Shown piece after piece: positions 463 through 34,923 of a stretch of DNA of 37,344 nt. Below the pieces are notes generated by a model, which saw nothing but the letters and a program-made list of their open reading frames with translations, did no database searches and was not told where the DNA came from. Both the position numbers and the translations under genes were made by a program. How positions within the stretch are numbered: position 1 is the first letter of the stretch; every line of letters begins with the position of its first letter. The DNA comes from a virus, in the IMG/VR virus record IMGVR_UViG_3300025133_000311, positions 1 to 37,344 of that record; one strand, written 5' to 3'.

Positions 463-704
463 GAATAGGAACTAAAAAATACATTATAGATAACAGACAT
501 AGAGAATTGCTAACCCTTTCAAATGGAATAAAGGCTTGGGGCGTATGGTTACATAAAGCATACACCTTCCGAGAAACGGCAAGATTCATTAGTGAACATG
601 AACATGAATGGAAGTACATAGTATATCAAGAATCACCACACACATTAAACTTACCACATAAAGAAAAAACATGGTTGGTATATGGAATAGGTGAATTAAA
701 GTGA
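459..704 (+). CDS. Small protein of unknown function between the polB fragments
   Basis: This 81-residue protein starts at ATG 459 behind a clear GAAGGAG site at about 444-450 and overlaps the previous stop by 4 nt. It is rich in aromatic and basic residues (W27, W30, several histidines around 47-50 and 60-67) and has no cysteine, signal peptide or membrane segment. It begins IGTKKY like its upstream neighbour but then diverges. It ends with a GTGA overlap into the C-terminal polymerase fragment, so translation of the two is probably coupled. No family recognised. Confidence 0.65.
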   Translation: MRIGTKKYIIDNRHRELLTLSNGIKAWGVWLHKAYTFRETARFISEHEHEWKYIVYQESPHTLNLPHKEKTWLVYGIGELK

Positions 705-1573
705 AGGTTGTTTATGGACATACAGATTCAATATATGTCAAAATACCATCAATAGAAAAAGCAAAAGAAGTAGTAAAGGAGATTAATACACATGTGCAAA
801 AAATATTCCCGAATGTTCTTAGACTCAAACACCATCCTGTTGAATTGGAGTTTGAAAAATATTATTCTTCGCTTGGCGTTGGCACTACAAAGAATCGTAA
901 TGCGGGGATTGTATCGTGGGAAGATGGAATAACTCTTGAAGAACCTAAGTTTGTAATGACAGGTTTTACTGCAAAGCGCATTAGTGAAACTCAATTTGCT
1001 AAGAGGGTTCAACTGACCCTTCTTAAACAATGGGTAAATGGCAAGTCTTTAAGTGAAATTATTTCTTATCTTAATGGTGAGTATAAAACTATGATTAGTG
1101 GTAATGCGCCCCTATTAGACATAATTAAAAGAAGTAGATTGAAACCAGAAAGGTTTAAAGTAAAATGTTCTTGTAAAAAACACTATACCATAAATCAATG
1201 TAGGGAAATGAAACATTGTAAAGGGTGTGGGAAGAATAAGACACAATTCACAACATTAGAAGGTAAGAAACCTACTTTTGGTGGGGGTGTTGCTGGTATT
1301 TTATATGGGCAGGAAAAATTGAGTGTTGAATATGACGATTCTTACCTTTTTTTGAAGGTAAAACTAAATGATAGTTTTACTCATCCTTTAACTGATGAAA
1401 TTAAGAAGGTTGATTATGTAGCATTTAATAAATATGTAGATTTTGATAATTATATTCCTAATTGGGAATATTATGCGAACCAAGTAATTAAAAAGGCAAC
1501 TCCTGTATTCAATGCAATGGGTTGGGACACATCAACAATAAGAACAGGAAGAATAGTAAGCGAGTGGTGGTAA
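701..1573 (+). CDS. polB: Family-B DNA polymerase, C-terminal fragment (motif C and thumb)
   Basis: This 290-residue protein starts at GTG 701 behind AGGTGAATT. Residues 2-14 are the catalytic palm strand with motif C as YGHTDS (residues 5-10). The essential second Asp of the usual YGDTDS is present (D9), and the first is replaced by His (H7). The KxRY-like segment TTKNRNAG follows at about 62-69, then the thumb entry GFTAKRISETQFAKRVQ (88-104). The usual C-terminal helix around NYIPNWEYYANQVIKKATPVF (about 250-270) is also there. An inserted cysteine cluster lies at C156, C158, C167, C173 and C176, probably a zinc ribbon in the thumb. The exonuclease domain and motifs A and B are absent, so it must work with the fragment ending at 142. 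Methanothermobacter PolB is split into two polypeptides with motif C on the smaller one, a useful precedent. Confidence in the family is high. Confidence 0.88.
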   Translation: MKVVYGHTDSIYVKIPSIEKAKEVVKEINTHVQKIFPNVLRLKHHPVELEFEKYYSSLGVGTTKNRNAGIVSWEDGITLEEPKFVMTGFTAKRISETQFAKRVQLTLLKQWVNGKSLSEIISYLNGEYKTMISGNAPLLDIIKRSRLKPERFKVKCSCKKHYTINQCREMKHCKGCGKNKTQFTTLEGKKPTFGGGVAGILYGQEKLSVEYDDSYLFLKVKLNDSFTHPLTDEIKKVDYVAFNKYVDFDNYIPNWEYYANQVIKKATPVFNAMGWDTSTIRTGRIVSEWW

Positions 1574-18654: not shown

Positions 18655-20058
18655 TTACATCACCGTTCTTGAACTTGTGCTTCTATTAACTTCACGATTA
18701 ACCATCTGCCCTACTTTTTGGGCAACCTTTCTCAAATCATTATCTGCTAAACTGTTTGCATTAACTGTAATGTTGAAAGTGTTGCCTCCTCCTTTACTAA
18801 CCATTTTCTTAGATTGTGTATTAGTATGTACTCTTGAACCTCTTGGTAATGAAACTAATTCCGGCCCACCTTCACCAACAAGTTGCATATTAGAATTAAC
18901 AATCCCTCCACCTGCATGTTTGCTAAAGAAACCCTTACCTGAAAACATATTCTTAAGTTTTTTTATCAAAAACCATGCTCCTAATATTATTGCCGCAGTA
19001 AGAATTAGAGGTAGGCCATATATAGCAATCACAATTAAACCAATCAGCCCAAATATACTATACACTATTCCCTTTTTACCCATATTGGTTATTTTTTTCA
19101 CCAATCTAGCAATGCTACTTTTGATAAATATAATTACAAACTTCCAAATGGGCAAAATTATACCTGTTATAATGCCCCATAATACTGTAAGTAGGCCCAA
19201 ACCTATTTTCAAAATACCATCCATCATACCTTCTAATTTACCTTTGCCGAAGGGGTCTTTAAGAAAAGACCATATTTGACTAAAACCATCTTTAAATAAT
19301 TTTCCTCCTTTCTTAATAAATCCCCAAGCCGTACTAAAACCATCTTTCGCCGCATCCCACGCCTTTCCTAATTGGGGCTTAAATGCTTGAAGTGCTACTG
19401 CTATAATAGCAATATAAAAAGATGCTAACAATAAAAACTTTAGTCCTCCTTTGATAAATTTTAATGAGTTACCTAAAAATTGAATTGTCTTACCTTTTAT
19501 CTTATTAAAAAACTTAGTTCTTTTCTTTGAATCTCTAAAGAAAGATACAAAACCTTGTGCTTTAGTTATTCCTCCTTTTATTCCTCCTCCTATTTTATCT
19601 CTTATTCTTTGTGGCTTAACAATGGTTGAGTTTTCATTTAATGTCCCACTATCCGCCATATCAAATAAATTGCTAAAGCCTCCTACATCACTTTGTTCCT
19701 TCTTATTAGCAAATATTTTCATGAAGCCTTTGGGTCTAATTTTATTCAATGTTTCAAATACTTTACCTGTGGCTCTTAGACTAACATTGAATTTATTTAT
19801 TATTTTATATCCACCCGCCGCATAGAGTAATCTTCTAAAAAATACAGTTGCTCCCTCACCTTTGGACATAAAGTTTTCTATCCTATCAGCCGCCCTATGA
19901 AAAACATTTCTGTTTTTCTCTATTTGTTTTTCTACTTCTTTTTCTACTTTAATTGTTTCTTTAGCAACATCATTAGCCCTGCCCATTAGGTCAATTATTG
20001 TTTGTAAATGAACCTCCATTGCCTTCAATTTTTTATATTCGCCTCCGCCAACCATCAT
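18655..20058 (-). CDS. Tail tape measure protein (short)
   Basis: This 467-residue protein has a helical N-terminal coiled coil (residues about 10-65) and basic amphipathic segments. Three strongly hydrophobic stretches follow (about 207-226, 292-316, 333-367). Near the C-terminus there is a segment GGGIVNSNMQLVGEGGPELV followed by LPRGSRV (about 386-411). The GGxV...VGExGPE motif is a hallmark of phage tape measure C-termini. The protein is short for the family, predicting a tail of only several tens of nanometres if the usual length relation holds. Position right after the tail assembly chaperones supports the call. Confidence 0.85.
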   Translation of the reverse strand: MMVGGGEYKKLKAMEVHLQTIIDLMGRANDVAKETIKVEKEVEKQIEKNRNVFHRAADRIENFMSKGEGATVFFRRLLYAAGGYKIINKFNVSLRATGKVFETLNKIRPKGFMKIFANKKEQSDVGGFSNLFDMADSGTLNENSTIVKPQRIRDKIGGGIKGGITKAQGFVSFFRDSKKRTKFFNKIKGKTIQFLGNSLKFIKGGLKFLLLASFYIAIIAVALQAFKPQLGKAWDAAKDGFSTAWGFIKKGGKLFKDGFSQIWSFLKDPFGKGKLEGMMDGILKIGLGLLTVLWGIITGIILPIWKFVIIFIKSSIARLVKKITNMGKKGIVYSIFGLIGLIVIAIYGLPLILTAAIILGAWFLIKKLKNMFSGKGFFSKHAGGGIVNSNMQLVGEGGPELVSLPRGSRVHTNTQSKKMVSKGGGNTFNITVNANSLADNDLRKVAQKVGQMVNREVNRSTSSRTVM

Positions 20059-20792: not shown

Positions 20793-22322
20793 TCACCCCT
20801 GTAAAATCCAATGACTAATAACTTCGCAAGTGTCTAAAGAGCGAGCCTGTATTGTTGCTTCAACATCAATTGGCCCTTTATCATCGGGAATGTTCCAATT
20901 ATTAGAGGTGATAAAGTAATCATCTAATTTAATAGTAATCTTTTCATTGTTAGCCTTAGTAAAAATAAGTTCAATTAATGAACCCGAAGTTTCTGTTAAG
21001 TTTCTAAATTCTTCAAATAGCATATTATCAGTAACATGCGCAGTAAAAGTTAATTCGTATGTCCTTTGTGCAGGAATACCGTCTTTAACTTCTCTACTAC
21101 TGATTCCTATATATCTCTTATCTGCAATGTTATTATTTATTGTTAAAGTAAATTGAGTAATCTTTAGGAAGTTTTGCCCAAACATCTTAATTGTTCCTTC
21201 ATGGAAAAAGAAAGGTTCAAGGAAACTATCGTTGCTATTATAGTTAAAGAAAGAAGTTTCTGTTTCCACACCATTTCTTGCTTCATATGCTTCTGTTTGT
21301 CCTAATGCATGAACGGCTCTTGTATTCAAGTCTAAATTCATCTTTATAGGGTCTTGTTCACTACCTGTTATAGTAAGTGAATTTACTCGGTTTCCTCTTG
21401 CTACAGTAACAAAGTTTTCTGTTTCGGAGGCCGCACCTGTTTCTGTTAAATATGTATCAGTAGCAGAACTAAGTTTAGAATATGTTCTCTCTAATGCAAA
21501 TGAAGGTAATTCATGTCCACTTGCTTCTTCAAAAGTATAGGTAATTAAATGTGAATTAGTGGTTGGATTTGTAATAGTGTCCATACTTCCAAAGGCATCA
21601 GTAGGCATTAATGGTGGTACTAAATCTGTCCCTACTGAACGATAAAAAATTGGGCCTGTTTCAAGATGGGCGGCATTATCAATAAAAATACCATCACTTG
21701 TAGCGGTAAAGGAATCTGTTACCCCACTATTTGCGGCGGCGATACTTGCTGAGGTTGCACCCGTACATTTACCAAGAGTATAATAAAGCCAAGCCCCATG
21801 ATTAGCCGCTACCTCAAAAGACCCACCACTTGCAGTTTCTAATCCTTTATATTGGAATGTAAGGTTTCTACTTCCACCAATGAAAAGATTATGTTGTTTC
21901 ATGTCTATTTCAATATTTGGGAATGTTGCTGAATCAACAATACCTAGCCATTCATCGGAAAGTAGTCTTGCTATTGACGATGTTTTTGGTGCAGGGCAAG
22001 GGCTTCCATATCCTTTTAGAATAAAATAATCGGATGATGAATAAGTGGCGGCAGTAATAGCAGGATGAAAAGTAAAAGTATCATAAGTATTACCTGTTAC
22101 TCTATGTGTTGAAATTAATAGACCTGTTGATGTGTCCCAAAATTCAATAATAGAACCAACATACATATCTACTACAAGTCTAAACTGCCCCATATCAGTA
22201 GTATGTATTCTAACAGTTGTATCAGCCGTTACAGGAGTTGCTAATGGTTTAATATAAAAATCAACTTCCGGTATGAAAGTTAAACTCGTTCCGCTTCCTA
22301 CAAATATATCGTTATTTACCAT
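20793..22322 (-). CDS. Major tail (tube) protein
   Basis: This 509-residue protein starts at ATG 22322 behind AAGGAG. It is beta-rich throughout, with late segments such as VNSLTITGSEQDPIKMNLDL (about residues 311-330) and FLKITQFTLTINNNI (about 383-397). Both are typical of siphovirus tail-tube subunits, where a long beta strand pair mediates ring contacts. The size is large for a tube subunit, so extra surface domains are likely in the first 300 residues. It lies between the tail terminator and chaperone genes, as expected. Confidence 0.7.
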   Translation of the reverse strand: MVNNDIFVGSGTSLTFIPEVDFYIKPLATPVTADTTVRIHTTDMGQFRLVVDMYVGSIIEFWDTSTGLLISTHRVTGNTYDTFTFHPAITAATYSSSDYFILKGYGSPCPAPKTSSIARLLSDEWLGIVDSATFPNIEIDMKQHNLFIGGSRNLTFQYKGLETASGGSFEVAANHGAWLYYTLGKCTGATSASIAAANSGVTDSFTATSDGIFIDNAAHLETGPIFYRSVGTDLVPPLMPTDAFGSMDTITNPTTNSHLITYTFEEASGHELPSFALERTYSKLSSATDTYLTETGAASETENFVTVARGNRVNSLTITGSEQDPIKMNLDLNTRAVHALGQTEAYEARNGVETETSFFNYNSNDSFLEPFFFHEGTIKMFGQNFLKITQFTLTINNNIADKRYIGISSREVKDGIPAQRTYELTFTAHVTDNMLFEEFRNLTETSGSLIELIFTKANNEKITIKLDDYFITSNNWNIPDDKGPIDVEATIQARSLDTCEVISHWILQG

Positions 22323-23047: not shown

Positions 23048-24175
23048 TTAATCAATAAAATAAATCATATCTTTCTTTCCATTAAGAATATCCATAGCCT
23101 CTTGTTTAAGAATATCGTATTTTTCTTTAGTGGTAATGTTTGCTCCTGTTTCAGCAATAAGAATGCTTTGGTCGTCATGTCTAATTATTTCAGCCGCAAC
23201 TAATTTTGTGGCGGCTTCATGTATGGATGAAGGAACACGGCTATCACCGGCAATATAAGAAACGATGACAGAATTATTATTATGATATGGATATTTCTTT
23301 AAGAAGAAAAGCCTACCCTCATGTCCTATTTTCCAAAAGTCGCCAATTCTTTTCATGTTTTGCTTATCGGTAAAACTCTCAACTGTTATTGCATCTGCAA
23401 CGGTTCCACTTGAAACAGTAGCACTAATAGTACAATCCGAGCCATCTTCTCCCATAAGCAAACTTGAAATATTAATTTTATAGCCATCTGTTTCATCAAT
23501 ACTTGCAAAGAAAAAATCACTAATGTTAAAATCTGTTCCACCATCTTCTGTTAAAGTTTTTTTATTATCTGCCTTAGTAAAAGGCACAGTATTAGAAGGA
23601 AACTGTTCATTGATTAAAGTTACAATTTCTTGAGCAGTAGTCTTAGCACCAAACTTCTTATTGAAATTAGCATCACTCAAACTTGACCCTACATTAGTGC
23701 TTGCGTTAAGAGTAAAGGTAGTGCTACCATCGGGCAATACCAAACTAATTGTAGCGAGTTTGTCATATTCACTACTATCTAAAACAATTGATGCTTGAGC
23801 AGAAGCCAATTCTCTATATGAATTACCTTCCCAAACCTGTAAAGAAACTATCTTCTTAACTTTCATATGGTTAAGTTGAACAAACCCTACATATCCACCA
23901 TAGTAAACATCGGAAGGATGGGTAGCAAATTCAAAATTATGAAATTCTTGGTTGTGTAAAATTGGCCTAAAGGAACGATTTATCTTATCGTCAATAATTC
24001 CCTCAACTCGTTTAATAATTGAACCAACTTGTGTATTAGTAGGGTTTGTTAAAGCACTAAAACTTGGTATTTGTAGTAAATCTGCAACTGCTTCTTCATC
24101 AGTATAATATCCTTTACCTGTTGAATAGTCTGCATTTATAGTGGTATAATCACTTGGGGAAAATGCAATAGGCAT
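23048..24175 (-). CDS. Head-tail adaptor/connector-like protein
   Basis: This protein has 375 residues. An N-terminal helical segment (DEEAVADLLQIPSF and VGSIIKRVEGIIDDKINRSF, about 25-70) and a C-terminal helical segment (SIHEAATKLVAAEIIRHDD and then ILKQEAMDIL) flank a large beta-rich insertion of about 230 residues. Helical ends of this kind are characteristic of HK97 gp6/SPP1 gp15-type adaptors bound below the portal. Most adaptors are only 100-150 residues, so the central insert is unusual. It starts in a TAATG overlap with the 418-residue gene. Confidence 0.65.
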   Translation of the reverse strand: MPIAFSPSDYTTINADYSTGKGYYTDEEAVADLLQIPSFSALTNPTNTQVGSIIKRVEGIIDDKINRSFRPILHNQEFHNFEFATHPSDVYYGGYVGFVQLNHMKVKKIVSLQVWEGNSYRELASAQASIVLDSSEYDKLATISLVLPDGSTTFTLNASTNVGSSLSDANFNKKFGAKTTAQEIVTLINEQFPSNTVPFTKADNKKTLTEDGGTDFNISDFFFASIDETDGYKINISSLLMGEDGSDCTISATVSSGTVADAITVESFTDKQNMKRIGDFWKIGHEGRLFFLKKYPYHNNNSVIVSYIAGDSRVPSSIHEAATKLVAAEIIRHDDQSILIAETGANITTKEKYDILKQEAMDILNGKKDMIYFID

Positions 24176-25443: not shown

Positions 25444-26103
25444 TTACATTAGCCATTTAGCCCAAGCCGCACCTTTTTGAATTGCACTACCTAAATGTAG
25501 GCCGCTTTGTGGTGGTTCATAACTCATTTGTCCTTGAGCATCCACCCAATATGGCCTACCATAATTATCTTGTCCACTTGGAGGAACAGGGTAGCCACTA
25601 TTATTATTCATGGCTACTTGTCCTTGTCCATACATTTGTTGTGCTTGTCCGTATTGTCCTTGTGCCTGTTGAACACCTTGCATACCATTAGGGTTTTGTC
25701 CACCTGTAAATCCTTGTGATTCTAAGTATTGTTGTTTAGCCATCTTACGCTGAGTAATTACTTCACTATCAATTGCTGAATTAAGTAAATTGATAATATC
25801 TAAATCTATATTCTCTTGGGTAATTTTTTCATAATCTTTCATAGCATCGGGATGAACTGACATTTTACCTGTTGTTGTATCTTGAACAAATTCTAATTTA
25901 GTAAGCATTTGACTAACCACTCTTTCAACAACATCTTCAATTAGTTTTTCCATTGAAGTGAAAAATTGCTGACCGTGATATTGGAAAAATTCTTCCACAT
26001 GGTTTTCTTGCAAAGAAAGCAAGTTATTCATCGTCTTAAATTGTGTATCGCTTTGTGCGCTTACCGCACCCATTATATCGTTTCTGTTTGGGCCAAATAC
26101 CAT
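25444..26103 (-). CDS. Protein with Gln/Gly/Tyr-rich low-complexity C-terminus
   Basis: The frame opens at GTG 26112, but AAGGTGAG upstream fits ATG 26103 (219 residues). The N-terminal about 130 residues are helical (SMEKLIEDVVERVVSQMLTK). From about residue 130 there is a low-complexity region with repeats of QGQ, QYGQAQ and MYGQGQ, then PVPPSGQDNYGRPYW. Such prion-like tails occur in some virion and membrane-tether proteins. No family recognised. It follows the zinc-binding protein with its start within 2 nt of that stop. Confidence 0.6.
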   Translation of the reverse strand: MVFGPNRNDIMGAVSAQSDTQFKTMNNLLSLQENHVEEFFQYHGQQFFTSMEKLIEDVVERVVSQMLTKLEFVQDTTTGKMSVHPDAMKDYEKITQENIDLDIINLLNSAIDSEVITQRKMAKQQYLESQGFTGGQNPNGMQGVQQAQGQYGQAQQMYGQGQVAMNNNSGYPVPPSGQDNYGRPYWVDAQGQMSYEPPQSGLHLGSAIQKGAAWAKWLM

Positions 26104-26104
26104 C

Positions 26105-26734
26105 TTACTCACCTTTTGCTCCTTCCATCAATGTATTAATTCTATCAGCCGCTATCTTCATTTCCATTGTTAATCTTACAACTTCTTCAAGTGGTTTTTC
26201 TTCTTTTTGTTGTGGGGGTTTTAGAATCCAACCTGCGGCGGATAGAGAAAATACATCTTCCTTATTTAATGACTGTAATGGCCCACGCTTTAACATTTGG
26301 GGTATTCTTGGCTTAGGAACAAAGGCTTTGAAATCTAAACCATGTTCATCTGCAAGTATTTGTTGTTGTAACATTTCTAATTGACGATGTAAACTTGCAT
26401 GTTTTTCACAGTATGTTCCTCTTAGTGGCCTACCTTTTACAACATCACTTAATGGTATGGGGGGTCTTAAATAATCCCCGCCCTGCCATACTTTATGAAC
26501 ACCACAGACTACACATCTATCTTTTAGGTTAAACTTCATTCCATATCGGATTATGAACTTTTTCTTTTCGGGGAGTAATACTAATTTAATTTCTTTAAGT
26601 TGTTTCTTTGGTTTGATTTGAGCAAACTTATATTCTTCAATTGGCCCACATGCTCTTGCTCTTTGTAAAGGGGGTAAGAACTTATTAGGGGCGTTTTGGC
26701 TAGCATCTATCAATAGATTTTGTTGGTTAAACAT
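26105..26734 (-). CDS. Putative zinc-binding protein next to the GTPase
   Basis: This 209-residue protein has CVVCGVHKVW (about 74-83) and, 29 residues on, YCEKHASLH, forming a C-x2-C...C-x2-H set consistent with one zinc site. The N-terminal part is basic, and the C-terminal third is rich in Lys, Glu and Met and probably helical. It begins 10 nt after the GTPase stop in the transcription direction. It might be a partner of the GTPase, but that is only proximity. Confidence 0.6.
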   Translation of the reverse strand: MFNQQNLLIDASQNAPNKFLPPLQRARACGPIEEYKFAQIKPKKQLKEIKLVLLPEKKKFIIRYGMKFNLKDRCVVCGVHKVWQGGDYLRPPIPLSDVVKGRPLRGTYCEKHASLHRQLEMLQQQILADEHGLDFKAFVPKPRIPQMLKRGPLQSLNKEDVFSLSAAGWILKPPQQKEEKPLEEVVRLTMEMKIAADRINTLMEGAKGE

Positions 26735-26744
26735 TTTACATTCC

Positions 26745-27431
26745 TCAATAATCCTTTATCATCGTGGTGATACCCCGATAAACCATCTCCGGTTGTGATT
26801 TAGCAGACACTATATATTTATAACATGGTATGCCTTTATCATTAAGTTTTTGCATACCATATTTGAAAGGTTCAAAGATAGGATGGTCTTTCATTTCCCC
26901 TTCATATGGGTGTTTTTCTTTCCAAATATCGTATTTATTAGCCCAAATACCTATGGCTAAAGGGTAGTCATGTTCTTTTTTCTTTTTGTTATTAGACCAT
27001 TTATTATTTTGTATAATATCAACTAAAAACTTCCAAGCAAGTTGATGGTCTAAATTAGCAGGTGAATCTAAATGTCTATGGTCTATCATAAAAATAACAT
27101 ATCTTACCTTTCTAAGCCTCATATCTTTTTCCCATTCTTTCCAATAATGAGCCTCACCACCAACATCAGCAGTTTTAAGAGTATGTGCTTCTCCATCTAT
27201 CTTTACAACTTTGCGAGAGCCTTTATGCAAACCAACAGTTCTATGTTTTATTTCGGGTACTTCGCCCCTTGTTCTAAGTTGATGATGTAAAGTAGTTTTA
27301 CCAACCATAGTAGAACCATAAACTCCAAACTGTATTGCATGTATTCTTTTATAAAAAGAGATAGCCATTTCACTTAATACTATGGCGAACCCTGCGAGAA
27401 CAGACACATTTAACCACCAATATGATGCCAT
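26745..27431 (-). CDS. Membrane-anchored Arf/SR-beta-like small GTPase
   Basis: This 228-residue protein has an N-terminal hydrophobic helix (about residues 6-26) followed directly by a small-GTPase domain. All five G motifs are recognisable: G1 GSTMVGKTT (39-47), G2 candidate T65 in HRTVG, G3 DVGGE (89-93), G4 NKYD (165-168) and G5 SAK (209-211). The DVGG form of G3 is typical of the Arf/Sar/SR-beta group, where the next residue is usually the catalytic Gln; here it is Glu (E93). A single N-terminal span plus an Arf-like domain is also the layout of SR-beta, the membrane subunit of the signal recognition particle receptor. The gene overlaps the upstream small membrane gene by 22 nt. I know no standard role for such a protein in tailed-virus virion operons. 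Confidence 0.85.
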   Translation of the reverse strand: MASYWWLNVSVLAGFAIVLSEMAISFYKRIHAIQFGVYGSTMVGKTTLHHQLRTRGEVPEIKHRTVGLHKGSRKVVKIDGEAHTLKTADVGGEAHYWKEWEKDMRLRKVRYVIFMIDHRHLDSPANLDHQLAWKFLVDIIQNNKWSNNKKKKEHDYPLAIGIWANKYDIWKEKHPYEGEMKDHPIFEPFKYGMQKLNDKGIPCYKYIVSAKSQPEMVYRGITTMIKDY

Positions 27432-27628
27432 AGGTTTCCTAATTGATTGAATATTTCACCCATGATATTAACACCAAACACTCCCATAATATTACCTACT
27501 AAGAAACCACACAAAGCCACACATGAACCCCAAAAATAGGCTCTAAACTTTAGAAACCAAATATCTGCACTATGAGCCCTTTGTAAATCGTAGGCCATTG
27601 CACCTTCATCAAATCCGGTGAATACCAT
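27410..27628 (-). CDS. Small Gly-rich membrane protein
   Basis: This 72-residue protein starts at ATG 27628 behind AGGTGATTAA. A hydrophobic stretch from about 29 to 57 (WGSCVALCGFLVGNIMGVFG) is likely one membrane span with glycine packing motifs. The N-terminal 28 residues are polar. Its 3' end overlaps the GTPase start, suggesting coupled translation. Function unknown; it could be a partner of the GTPase or a virion membrane-interacting protein. Confidence 0.6.
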   Translation of the reverse strand: MVFTGFDEGAMAYDLQRAHSADIWFLKFRAYFWGSCVALCGFLVGNIMGVFGVNIMGEIFNQLGNLWHHIGG

Positions 27629-27636
27629 TTAATCAC

Positions 27637-28035
27637 CTATGGTTGGAGGGCGGCTAAAAACTCATTACCTATGCCTTCTGTTTCATAAGTAGAAGTAATT
27701 TGAGTTTGGGGAATATTAAAAGTATTTGAATATTGTTTCATAGTATCTTTAAGTTTATTCCTTTGTTCTTCTTCCTTAGACATTCTTTCCCAATAATGTT
27801 TAATGCGCCTATCAAGCAAATACATTTCTATCCTATCATTAAGTGATAAATCAAACAATGCTTTCATTACCATAATTGAACCAACGGTAATCAGCCCAAA
27901 TAAAACCGCATGTTCTAATGCCCCATACGGGAATGATAAACCAAAGTTAGCATAAAAATACACATTTGCTCCGCTAACTGTCCCTACAAAAAGAATAGTC
28001 ATTACAAGGCGAGTATCGTGATTTAAGGCTGGCAT
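27637..28035 (-). CDS. Two-span membrane protein with charged C-terminal domain
   Basis: The frame opens at GTG 28053, but ATG 28035 follows the upstream stop in the TAATATG arrangement used elsewhere here (132 residues). Two hydrophobic spans lie at about 10-29 and 40-60, followed by a charged helical segment (RRIKHYWERMSKEEEQRNKLKDTM) and a polar tail. With the next two genes it forms a run of three membrane proteins in the virion operon. No family recognised. Confidence 0.6.
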   Translation of the reverse strand: MPALNHDTRLVMTILFVGTVSGANVYFYANFGLSFPYGALEHAVLFGLITVGSIMVMKALFDLSLNDRIEMYLLDRRIKHYWERMSKEEEQRNKLKDTMKQYSNTFNIPQTQITSTYETEGIGNEFLAALQP

Positions 28036-28036
28036 A

Positions 28037-28360
28037 TTAATTAAACTCCACACTTACTGCACAATGAGAACTAGGGTCTGGAGCGGCGGGAGCCGTTATT
28101 TCTAAATAAAGACCTTCTCTTGCTAATACACCATGACAATCATATTCTATATTTTGTGCTTGCATATTCCCATTAAACACCATTCTAATTAATTCTGTAT
28201 TTCCTGTTAATGTTGCATCTTTAGAATCATATATTTTGATAATATATTCATCTGCATTTGCCCCCCTACATGTAGCATGAACACTTTTCAACCTACATGG
28301 ATGGGCGGCAATAATACCTGTTGCTGATAAGACCCCGCTACTTCTGCTTGCATCTGCCAT
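28037..28360 (-). CDS. Small beta-sandwich virion protein (decoration-like)
   Basis: This 107-residue protein has the order SGVLSATGIIAA, LKSVHATCRGA, EYIIKIYDSKDA, then a NIEYDCHG turn and GLYLEITAP. Small proteins with this pattern are common downstream of capsid genes in marine tailed viruses and look like beta sandwiches. A decoration or head-fibre role is plausible but unproven. It has three cysteines (C22, C31, C74) plus one near the C-terminus. Confidence 0.55.
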   Translation of the reverse strand: MADASRSSGVLSATGIIAAHPCRLKSVHATCRGANADEYIIKIYDSKDATLTGNTELIRMVFNGNMQAQNIEYDCHGVLAREGLYLEITAPAAPDPSSHCAVSVEFN

Positions 28361-29043: not shown

Positions 29044-30387
29044 TCATTGAATGTTGGTAATTTTACCTTGACCCTTGAAGAAAGAACAACCTACTTCACC
29101 AATTGTTCGGTAAAGTGCTTGGTTTCCAAGACGACCAACACCAAATGGGTTTCCGTTGCCGATACCATCTTCAAAGTATTGAGTTGGTTTCATAACTGCG
29201 AGCCAAATGTGGTCTGTATCTAAGAATAGCATATCGCTTGTCTTTGAAGTTGCAGTTCCTGTGCTAGCCATATCCTTTACGGGGATTAGTGGTATGTCAT
29301 AGTATGTTGAAACTCGGAAGCCAACTTCTTGACCCTTTACTCCACGCACACCATTTACAGTAGGAATGATTTGCTTTCTATCCATAAAACGCTCTTGGCT
29401 TTGTAGTAAGTCTGCAATTGCTTGGATGGTATCATATCCGGTTAGAATAACCTTTGGTGAACCACCTGCAACACGGAGTCTGCGAATCATGTCATTTAGT
29501 AAAGTTAATGTTAAAGAACGAACTGCGGTACTTGCATAGGAAGCCCCATAATCAACTTCTGCATCTAAGAAAGATGCGGCGGTGAAACGCTCATCACCGT
29601 AAATCTTTCCAAGATTATTTGAGTTAGTTGCGGTATCAGTTGCAATAGCCCCACCGTCAATAGCAAGAATTTCTGCTCGGCTTGTTACAATCTTATTTAA
29701 TGAAGTATAGTTTCTTTCAATATCCCCTAAGTTTGTGCTTTCACCATAATGTTCCAAAGGCATAACAAGCATCATGTTTTGTGCTTCTGCATGTGCTATC
29801 CCCATATCTTTGCGAAGTTGTGCTCTAATGTCGCCAACTCCATCATCAATCTTAGCCATTTCCATAGCCAATTCCGAGAAGTCAAACTGATGCGCTACAA
29901 TCTTTGGGCTCATAAACAATTGTGCATATGTTGGAGCCATTGAACCAAGACCATCTGCCGCAGTAGAAAGACCTGCATTTTCAGGAACGCCACCAATTTC
30001 ATCAGCAAACGGTGTAGCACTACCTATTCCGCCTGTTCCACTTCCATCACCAACTGCTCCGGCTATAGTATTTCCACTACCACCAAAGGGTCGGGCTTTC
30101 AAAACTCTCCAACCACTTGAAGAATATGGCCTCTTTCCAATCATAGAAAGTGCATTAACTTCTCGGTTTAGCATAGACCAAACTTTTTGTCCGTAAAGAA
30201 CATTGTAAAGTCCGGCAGTTGTTCCTATTCCGGTAACACCGGAAGCCGCAGTTGCGGCGGTATCGTGTGCAGTATGTAATCCTTGAACAACACCTGCTTG
30301 TTTCAATACATCGTTTCCACCAAAAGCACTTGAAAAACCGTATGCTTCTGCTTCTAAATCTCTAATTGTGTTTATATATCCTGTCAT
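29044..30387 (-). CDS. HK97-fold major capsid protein
   Basis: This 447-residue protein starts at ATG 30387 behind GGGGTGATG. It follows the prohead protease/scaffold gene, as in HK97-type head modules. Segments such as YNVLYGQKVWSMLNREVNAL and GKRPYSSSGWRVLKARPF (about 60-100) look like the N-arm and E-loop region of archaeal tailed-virus capsid proteins. The C-terminal half (VILTGYDTIQAIADLLQ onward) fits the A-domain and P-domain. No separate delta domain is needed because scaffolding is supplied by the upstream gene. Confidence 0.8.
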   Translation of the reverse strand: MTGYINTIRDLEAEAYGFSSAFGGNDVLKQAGVVQGLHTAHDTAATAASGVTGIGTTAGLYNVLYGQKVWSMLNREVNALSMIGKRPYSSSGWRVLKARPFGGSGNTIAGAVGDGSGTGGIGSATPFADEIGGVPENAGLSTAADGLGSMAPTYAQLFMSPKIVAHQFDFSELAMEMAKIDDGVGDIRAQLRKDMGIAHAEAQNMMLVMPLEHYGESTNLGDIERNYTSLNKIVTSRAEILAIDGGAIATDTATNSNNLGKIYGDERFTAASFLDAEVDYGASYASTAVRSLTLTLLNDMIRRLRVAGGSPKVILTGYDTIQAIADLLQSQERFMDRKQIIPTVNGVRGVKGQEVGFRVSTYYDIPLIPVKDMASTGTATSKTSDMLFLDTDHIWLAVMKPTQYFEDGIGNGNPFGVGRLGNQALYRTIGEVGCSFFKGQGKITNIQ

Positions 30388-30404: not shown

Positions 30405-31046
30405 TTAAACAAACCTTCCAATTTCATCCCAACTCATGTCTGCAATTGCATCCATTGTTGTAGGGAAGCCTTCGGGTAAAGCCGATGCTTCGGTCTGTGC
30501 CTTGAGAATAGTTTCTTTATCATTTGTAAAACTCTTTCGGAGTTCTGCTAGTTCGTTCTTTAGTGTAGCAACTTCGCTTTGAGCATCGTATTGGCTCTTT
30601 GCAAGAGTATCGTTTCGGCTTGAAACTTCTTCTTGAAAGCGAGCCTCAAAGGATTTCTTTAGGTTAGTGTAGGCCAACTTTTCAAGTTGTTCTTCACGGA
30701 ATTCCACATATGCCTTTTCAATATTTGAAGGGTTAAGATTCAAAGAACCTACTTCGCTATTTTCAAATGCTTTTACAACAGTTGTAGCGGCTTGCCCACT
30801 ATTAGTAGGGTTTCCGTTATTAACAACTACACGGTCTGCCGGTTCACCATCTTCAATAACGCCAGCGTCAAGAGATGTACGAGCCTTCATTTCCTCATCA
30901 TCATATTCAGTCTTTTCTTCTTCATCTTCTACGGCCATATCTTCTACGATTTCGGCAGTTTCCAAATCTTCTTCCTTTCTTAGAGTATTGACTTCCTCTA
31001 ATAGAGTGTCAAGTTCTTCTAATGCTTTTTCTAATTTATTAGTCAT
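30405..31046 (-). CDS. Nested scaffold protein from an internal in-frame start
   Basis: Inside the protease gene, AAGGTGA (31060 to 31054) lies 7 nt before ATG 31046, in the same reading frame. The product would be 213 residues, beginning MTNKLEKALEELD and covering exactly the coiled-coil scaffold. This is the arrangement of lambda C/Nu3, where the scaffold is made separately from the 3' part of the protease gene. The site matches the AGGTGA sites in front of other genes in this window, and the start coincides with the domain border. Confidence 0.65.
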   Translation of the reverse strand: MTNKLEKALEELDTLLEEVNTLRKEEDLETAEIVEDMAVEDEEEKTEYDDEEMKARTSLDAGVIEDGEPADRVVVNNGNPTNSGQAATTVVKAFENSEVGSLNLNPSNIEKAYVEFREEQLEKLAYTNLKKSFEARFQEEVSSRNDTLAKSQYDAQSEVATLKNELAELRKSFTNDKETILKAQTEASALPEGFPTTMDAIADMSWDEIGRFV

Positions 31047-31583
31047 TTTTTGTTCACCTTGTTCTTGTTTTAATATGTCAAATCTCGCTTCGGGGTTAAT
31101 TCCTTTTTCACAAATAGTTACTTCATGCAGTTCTAATTTACTGATTTCGCTATATTCTCCTAGTTCTTCGTGCTTTTTCTTTACTTTTTGTATTGCCTGT
31201 CCACCTATACTAAAAGACCTTAATGTTCCCTTGCGAATTCCTCTATTTATTTCCTTTGCTTTTTCTATATCATCTCTTAATTTTATTACTACAAAAAACC
31301 CTACATCATCCACATCTGTTTTCCATAGTTTTCCATTTTTATCTCTATAACTTGGTATTACTTCTCCTACTTGCACATTTGAATGGTTTGTCATTACATT
31401 TCTAAAATTGTCCTTCTCCATAAATTGATTAGCGGCGGATTTCAAGGCTTCAAGTGTGATTAAGTCGTTTTGCTTATCCACAATTTCTATGCTTGCATAT
31501 CCCCCTATCATTAGTTCTTCGCTTTTTAGTATTCTAAAGTCGCAATGTTGCCGAGTAAGAATAGCAGAAGTCATTCTTCTCAT
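30405..31583 (-). CDS. Prohead protease (S78-like) fused to scaffold
   Basis: This protein has 392 residues from ATG 31583. Residues about 20-170 form the HK97-type prohead protease: GGYASIEIVDKQND (27-40), NHS with H67, RSFSIGGQA with S125 and ELHEVTICE (151-159). H67 and S125 are the probable catalytic pair. From about residue 180 on the sequence is a long acidic coiled coil (ALEELDTLLEEVNTLRKEED) typical of a scaffold, followed by a helical region (residues about 270-370). A good ribosome-binding site and ATG inside the gene at 31046 would produce the scaffold alone. It matures the capsid protein of the next gene. Confidence 0.85.
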   Translation of the reverse strand: MRRMTSAILTRQHCDFRILKSEELMIGGYASIEIVDKQNDLITLEALKSAANQFMEKDNFRNVMTNHSNVQVGEVIPSYRDKNGKLWKTDVDDVGFFVVIKLRDDIEKAKEINRGIRKGTLRSFSIGGQAIQKVKKKHEELGEYSEISKLELHEVTICEKGINPEARFDILKQEQGEQKMTNKLEKALEELDTLLEEVNTLRKEEDLETAEIVEDMAVEDEEEKTEYDDEEMKARTSLDAGVIEDGEPADRVVVNNGNPTNSGQAATTVVKAFENSEVGSLNLNPSNIEKAYVEFREEQLEKLAYTNLKKSFEARFQEEVSSRNDTLAKSQYDAQSEVATLKNELAELRKSFTNDKETILKAQTEASALPEGFPTTMDAIADMSWDEIGRFV

Positions 31584-34352: not shown

Positions 34353-34580
34353 TCACTCCATTTTTGAAATCATATCCGCCATATCATCAAATGACATTTT
34401 AGTAATATCATCCATACCTACTGTTCCTACTGAGTTCTGCATCTTTGGTGTAGGGCTATCCACTACAACAAAACCACTTTTCATTAAAAGGTTATCATTG
34501 TGGTATGCTACCTTTTCTAATTCTCTAACTCGGTTAACTAATTCTTTTAATAGCATAACTATTTCTGTATTTTCACTCAT
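34353..34580 (-). CDS. Small helical hypothetical protein
   Basis: This 75-residue protein overlaps the end of the gene upstream of it by 8 nt. The first 27 residues form a coiled-coil-like helix (VMLLKELVNRVRELEKV), followed by a short linker and an acidic Met-rich end. No motif recognised. Confidence 0.5.
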   Translation of the reverse strand: MSENTEIVMLLKELVNRVRELEKVAYHNDNLLMKSGFVVVDSPTPKMQNSVGTVGMDDITKMSFDDMADMISKME

Positions 34581-34923
34581 CTCTTAAATCCCCCTTTCTC
34601 TTTGGATATACTATTCCCCGAAGTTGCCTATACAAAGTTTCGTATTCCTTACGGAGTTTGCCAGCAGAAGCAACAATATCAAGGTTTGCCTCATCCATTA
34701 CTACTAACCTCTTGTTCATTTTCTTATCTGCTTTGATTAATTCTAAGTCTTTAAGCATATCAATCAATTCCCCAAGTTTAGTAAAATCCTGTCCAAAATA
34801 TTCACTTGGCTCGGCGGCTTGCATTGTTTTCTTTAATGTCTTTCGTTGTTTTACATCAAGGCTTTCAAGCACCTTGCTATTTTCCTTTTCTATTTTTTCT
34901 TTAAGTATTGTTTCCCAACTCAT
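34573..34923 (-). CDS. Small charged helical protein
   Basis: This 116-residue protein starts at ATG 34923, 3 nt after the coiled-coil gene stop. It is highly charged, with helical stretches (KQRKTLKKTMQAAEPSE and GKLRKEYETLYRQLRGIVY). The composition fits a terminase small subunit-like or portal-associated protein only loosely; I assign no function. Confidence 0.5.
   Translation of the reverse strand: MSWETILKEKIEKENSKVLESLDVKQRKTLKKTMQAAEPSEYFGQDFTKLGELIDMLKDLELIKADKKMNKRLVVMDEANLDIVASAGKLRKEYETLYRQLRGIVYPKRKGDLRDE

Follow-up and report, generated by a model that had tools for sequence, protein, structure and literature searches.

Discussion of GTP-controlled membrane switches has usually centered on eukaryotes, on Asgard archaea and on certain bacteria, and how archaeal tailed viruses handle the host membrane during assembly and release has been little described. 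In the literature searched, a GTP-controlled membrane step in other tailed viruses is not described, and we know of no core late GTP-dependent membrane function in tailed viruses. The described GTPases that invite comparison with the protein analyzed here are those of the Arf/Sar/G-alpha group, SR-beta, whose G3 motif usually reads DxPGH, the Ras- and Rab-like proteins of giant viruses, and group 1 MglA, in which an arginine next to the G2 threonine acts as an intrinsic arginine finger (PMC4316618). On the viral side, the major capsid proteins (MCPs) of Druskaviridae and of marine magroviruses form one clade (PMC8651126), and a chaperonin and an ATP-dependent ligase are among the features listed for Aoguangviridae/Magrovirales (PMC10768690).

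The DNA under study, referred to as the window, corresponds to IMG/VR virus record IMGVR_UViG_3300025133_000311, which is 37 kb long (37,344 nucleotides). Its MCP (29044..30387, minus strand) is 23-25% identical to Druskaviridae MCPs and is preceded by a prohead protease of the Peptidase_S78 family (30405..31583, minus); in synteny comparison, a gene named from its sequence as an ATP-dependent ligase lies just upstream of these two. A chaperonin gene was found in 12 of 13 long relatives (64-97 kb), so that the features described for Magrovirales, namely a Druskaviridae-related marine MCP, a genome of about 90 kb, a chaperonin and an ATP-dependent ligase, are all represented, with contig sizes and the chaperonin taken from the long relatives. 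Based on the MCP kinship, the chaperonin and the ligase, the window virus is classed as magrovirus-like, by published group features rather than by direct comparison of records, and its host is presumed to be Poseidoniales archaea. A separate ORF at 701-1573 (plus) looks like a C-terminal portion of family B DNA polymerase (YGHTDSIYVK), which fits the listing of a split PolB among Aoguangviridae features (PMC10768690). A further contig, IMGVR_UViG_3300021958_000021 (184,733 bases), carries two differing copies of the whole virion operon (L036 and L065) and may for this reason represent two magrovirus-like genomes joined as an assembly chimera or a concatemer.

Within this operon, an ORF running from 27431 to 26745 on the minus strand, with the plus strand not open at the same coordinates, encodes a small GTPase of 228 amino acids, recognized by its motifs, homologues, structural model and dN/dS. 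The gene is flanked upstream by the protease and MCP genes and downstream by a head-completion or adaptor-like gene whose role is suggested by its position (g375, 23048..24175), a tail protein gene (PHROG 290, 20793..22322) and a tape measure-like gene (18655..20058), all on the virion (minus) strand. The G1, G3, G4 and G5 motifs that a first-pass annotation had reported, naming no strand, in a 228-residue protein are all present, as G1/P-loop GSTMVGKT (residues 39-46, G39-T46; 27294..27317), G3 DVGGE (residues 89-93; 27153..27167), G4 NKYD (residues 165-168; 26928..26939) and G5 SAK (residues 209-211; 26799..26807). G2, left unnamed there, is also present as R64-T65-V66-G67 (27231..27242), with the arginine adjoining the G2 threonine. 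A second in-frame start near codon 9-10 is conserved as well.

These motifs, including the G2 threonine, are retained in 45 non-redundant homologues with 69-79% identity, in which the invariant residues include T41, V43, G44, K45, T46, R64, T65, G67, D89, G91, G92, E93, W100, N165, K166, D168, S209, A210 and K211. They are also retained in a deeper group reached via the MCP (L179, L180, L182, L184, L186, L188 and L194; 62-64% identity), and on the strength of both sets the motifs are far beyond chance. The absence of G4 or G5 from homologues was specifically looked for, and both proved conserved throughout these sets. When every ORF in 80 MCP-anchored loci was scanned with a regular expression for the ordered G1-G3-G4 motifs, all matches belonged to this GTPase family. 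In one locus (L073, 8001-8669) the GTPase is split over two ORFs by a frameshift or sequencing error; it is intact in all other loci checked across the full gene.

The protein begins with a hydrophobic helix at residues 9-27 (27351..27407, minus), defined by hydropathy, alignment and model, with a Kyte-Doolittle value of 1.82; the N-terminal span reported by the first-pass annotation thus corresponds to a segment detected in 74 of 79 homologues. Its mean Eisenberg hydrophobicity of 0.67 and low moment of 0.18 point to a segment more transmembrane-like than surface-amphipathic. Since Glu21 is invariant inside the hydrophobic span, the helix alone is predicted to form a marginal membrane span; a simple, approximate apparent free-energy sum has a median of +2.6 kcal/mol. 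S10, G14 and E21, all invariant, fall together with A32 on one helix face (100-140 degrees on the wheel), and this conserved small and polar face suggests protein packing, putatively against one of two small membrane proteins encoded next to the GTPase, tm138 or tm72. The former has an invariant Lys64 within its second hydrophobic stretch, a possible partner of the N-terminal helix.

Both membrane proteins belong to a module of five genes (tm138, tm72, GTPase, zf209 and g222). In the window, tm138 (27637..28053, minus) has one or two hydrophobic spans followed by a charged tail ending EFLAxLQ, and the 72-residue tm72 (27410..27628, minus) overlaps the GTPase start by 22 bases. The other two are soluble: zf209 (26105..26734, minus) has conserved C74xxC77 and C109xxH112 pairs, a probable zinc site, and a C-terminal helix, and g222 (25444..26112, minus) carries a C-terminal GRPYWIDPxTGQMSYEPP stretch. 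Module presence was scored on loci spanning from g375 to d107 (28037..28360, minus), a gene just upstream of the block that occurs in viruses with and without it, using an MCP-anchored scan that yielded viruses both with and without the GTPase. The module was complete (5/5) in 70 loci, wholly absent in 25 and partial in none. Module-positive viruses form one clade of the MCP tree (support 97/100), and a sister magrovirus-like clade lacks the whole module. Because the 95 counted loci are related sequences, this pattern represents one or few evolutionary events rather than 95 independent ones, and co-inheritance within a single clade can also reflect linkage. Gene order was constant where covered in the first-scan loci (protease, MCP, small genes, tm138, tm72, GTPase, zf209, g222, g375, tail), with the tm72 and GTPase genes overlapping or lying within 50 bases of each other in 76 of 89 loci. 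HCTV-1 of the Druskaviridae shares with the window virus a related capsid protein and the order protease-MCP-small genes-adaptor, but lacks the GTPase and indeed all five module genes. The place of the block, between capsid-associated genes and the adaptor, is held in HCTV-1 by gp116 (L081, 14221-14550), a 109-residue one-span protein.

Profile searches with tm138, tm72, zf209 and g222 gave no match to a known family, and the tm138, zf209 and g222 profiles returned nothing usable against the PDB. The conserved GYGRPYWIDPxTGQMSYEPP in the C-terminal third of g222 is similar to the latter half of a WW-type domain; profile searches gave no match for it. We considered an ArfGAP-like role for zf209 and dropped it on cysteine spacing, which at about 31 residues between pairs differs from that of Arf GAPs. 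As for tm138 and tm72, their size would fit a holin or lysis function, and nothing else supports that assignment.

Taken with the position of the gene between the capsid and protease genes and the adaptor and tail genes on the virion strand, which argues for a late role, these features lead us to propose, tentatively and short of an even chance, that the virus makes a membrane G-protein complex which would work late, when particle morphogenesis or egress involves the membrane. The first-pass annotation, which could not show that the gene is one of five co-inherited ones, had put forward a membrane switch that may act in assembly, genome delivery or host interference. We infer a physical complex in which the GTPase would be the G-protein subunit of the five-protein module expressed from the late virion operon, its N-terminal helix meeting tm138 and tm72 within the membrane of the host. 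Binding of GTP to the exposed G domain would control whether the two soluble partners, zf209 and g222, are recruited, and through them the head/neck assembly or the membrane. The complex would then be reset by hydrolysis via Glu93 (or Gln), perhaps with Arg64. As the partners match no known family and the structure model of zf209 is poor (pTM 0.42), they lend this mechanism no confirmation, and the absence of the whole module from the sister clade suggests that the step would be dispensable there or done otherwise. On a broader and more doubtful view, an abundant clade of archaeal ocean viruses could possess its own membrane G-protein complex, built on a virus-only Arf-like branch and gating a GTP-dependent step of assembly or exit. 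Across hundreds of magrovirus-like genomes this GTPase is more tightly conserved than the MCP, and with its four obligate partners it offers a defined set of proteins for testing a viral GTP-driven membrane step.

The neighborhood of the gene bears on a different placement of the same proteins. In many of the loci, additional ORFs occupy the intervals on either side of the GTPase gene, tm72-GTPase and GTPase-zf209 (for example L001 8687-9857, L036 7056-7691 and L187 10843-12623). Of the 47 that exceed 80 residues, 46 begin with the tag M(S)WxxI[L/I]K or a near variant of it, and the 47th has VWKDILK behind an upstream start. The tag was seen in none of 253 ORFs from the MCP-d107 interval. Over all loci it occurs on 129 ORFs, compared with 0.6 in shuffled N-termini, and 128 of these lie on the virion strand. 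Exact DNA matches to the tag numbered 24 in 13 long contigs (reversed control, 0). The tagged bodies form 50 clusters without detectable mutual similarity, conservation stopping after the tag lysine; one is a PAP2 phosphatase (E 6e-12) and another is weakly GNAT-like. Tagged ORFs also follow g375, and the window has one at 34573-34923 (minus; MSWETILK). The tag occurs in viruses without the cassette too and so does not belong to the GTPase module. Our guess is that it is a capsid-targeting signal, for packaging or ejection, on variable cargo, by analogy with the capsid-targeting signal of T4 internal proteins. Such cargo-like neighbors, and the location among head genes, would suit an entry module in which the GTPase and its membrane partners reside in or on the virion and, at infection, insert into the host membrane, where they would dock the tail or control the entry of the genome. 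We regard this as unlikely, as members of the GTPase family do not carry the tag and the packaging of membrane-spanning proteins would be awkward.

Conservation of the family bears on the second of the two main alternatives. Pairwise identities were computed for nine virion-operon proteins over 32 representatives, among which the GTPase is the most conserved (mean 0.755), followed by g222 (0.719), MCP (0.694), protease (0.682), tm138 (0.649), tm72 (0.622), g375 (0.616), zf209 (0.603) and d107 (0.475). The GTPase is under strong purifying selection, with a median dN/dS of 0.066, compared with 0.058 for tm138 and 0.103 for the MCP. In IMG/VR viral contigs, 141 relatives were found with a single-protein scan and at least 275 with an alignment scan. 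A pattern scan of GTDB, which reaches only close relatives, gave as its sole match the 12-kb contig NZMJ01000024.1 in a Maricaulis MAG (L084); since it carries the virion operon, this contig from an alphaproteobacterial MAG is a stray virus contig. No relatives were retrieved by a PHROGs search with the GTPase, by tblastn of the window protein and the divergent L184 protein against 50,697 phage records, or by tblastn against plasmids. GTPase-negative contigs of up to 94 kb, several of which encode a chaperonin, contain no match to the viral GTPase profile anywhere; a Ras profile likewise found nothing in GTPase-negative marine contigs and one weak, partial, sub-cut-off match in HCTV-1. The literature searched includes no paper with both magrovirus and GTPase, and the main magrovirus genome papers may already annotate the gene. 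A Ras-superfamily G domain with full motifs could instead mimic or sequester a regulator that acts on the host's own small GTPases (membrane traffic, vesicles, polarity or motility), the module then remodeling the host membrane rather than serving assembly, and giant viruses of eukaryotes do carry Rab/Ras-like proteins. The constant order of a GTPase gene embedded in the virion operon and a conservation above that of the capsid protein, unusual for a host-interaction factor, leave this option with a low probability.

The catalytic position bears on whether GTP cycling has been preserved. Glu after DVGG in place of Gln, as pointed out in the first-pass annotation, applies to nearly all members, with Gln found in L184 and L186. 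Glu93 may slow hydrolysis, as was suggested there, but reports on Ras Q61E disagree, with slower hydrolysis reported (PMC6813200) and increased intrinsic activity cited (PMC2987813), and one clade has Gln; sequence does not decide the matter. The substitution in most members might indicate a structural relic, whose GTPase fold would serve the virion or its assembly as a scaffold after GTP cycling was lost. This is very unlikely, because every nucleotide-contact motif, the base-specificity motifs G4 and G5 among them, has persisted through deep divergence and one clade has the catalytic Gln.

To place the protein structurally, an AlphaFold model was generated (pLDDT 67, pTM 0.66, with the P-loop and switches under 50), which has the predicted small-GTPase topology aN-b1-a1-b2-b3-a2-b4-a3-b5-a4-b6-a5, with six strands and a b2-b3 hairpin. 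The best 50 PDB matches obtained with Foldseek are all G-alpha, Ras or Rab G domains (VIA-align Z near 10), and structure matches in BFVD are Rab/Ras-like proteins of giant viruses. The best profile match was NCBIfam small_GTP (E 3e-5), all small-GTPase matches in Pfam and NCBIfam being sub-threshold. By motifs and predicted fold, the protein is confirmed as a genuine small GTPase of the Ras superfamily rather than a packaging ATPase, and motifs, model and gene neighborhood together bear out the earlier description of a small GTPase that starts with a hydrophobic helix and is encoded in a tailed-virus virion operon. A P-loop within a virion operon might also mark a P-loop protein of another kind, for instance a terminase or a packaging ATPase, which the conserved G4 NKxD and G5 SAK, the predicted small-GTPase topology and the structure matches render extremely unlikely.

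The first-pass label "Arf/SR-beta-like" holds for the Arf/G-alpha-like switch region (DxGG and W100) and fails at the Pfam Arf and SRPRB cut-offs; DVGG is a sign of Arf/Sar and G-alpha, not of SR-beta. Like Arf, Sar and G-alpha, the viral protein has a helix that immediately precedes beta-1, a switch I with TxG, the G-domain fold, and DxGGx followed by a tryptophan seven residues past the catalytic position. Its switch II D-x-G-G-[E/Q]-x6-W aligns with ARL8-type chains and 8oun, and the same tryptophan position occurs in G-alpha. It differs from Arf in falling below the Pfam Arf cut-off (17.0 bits for the window protein against 22.3, with the deepest member L184 nearly there at 21.2, the best member scored singly), in having mostly Glu at the catalytic place, SAK instead of an Arf-type G5, no myristoylation-type start and about 50 extra residues. 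With SR-beta it shares an N-terminal hydrophobic helix followed by a small GTPase domain, but that identity is unsupported, as the SRPRB score is 14.6 of 25 bits (16.8 for L182 and 16.9 for L184), G3 is DxGGE, pointing to Arf/Sar/G-alpha, and no SR-alpha or longin partner was recognized. Group 1 MglA shares the arginine adjoining the G2 threonine, invariant as R64 in the viral GTPase, but has TVPGQ or GTPGQ at G3 (PMC4316618) rather than DxGG[E/Q], and no MglB/roadblock partner was recognized among the module genes. Given these mixed signatures and Pfam cut-offs not reached, the protein is best filed, on sequence grounds, as a distinct Ras-superfamily branch with an Arf-leaning switch II, so far virus-only, rather than being assigned to Arf, to SR-beta or to MglA; small GTPases would thereby gain a branch so far confined to viruses whose switch II has traits of Arf and G-alpha. 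The Ras/Rab-like proteins of giant viruses are likewise virus-encoded small GTPases, but their structural similarity is weak and their hosts are eukaryotes, whereas the present GTPase sits in the core late operon of archaeal tailed viruses.
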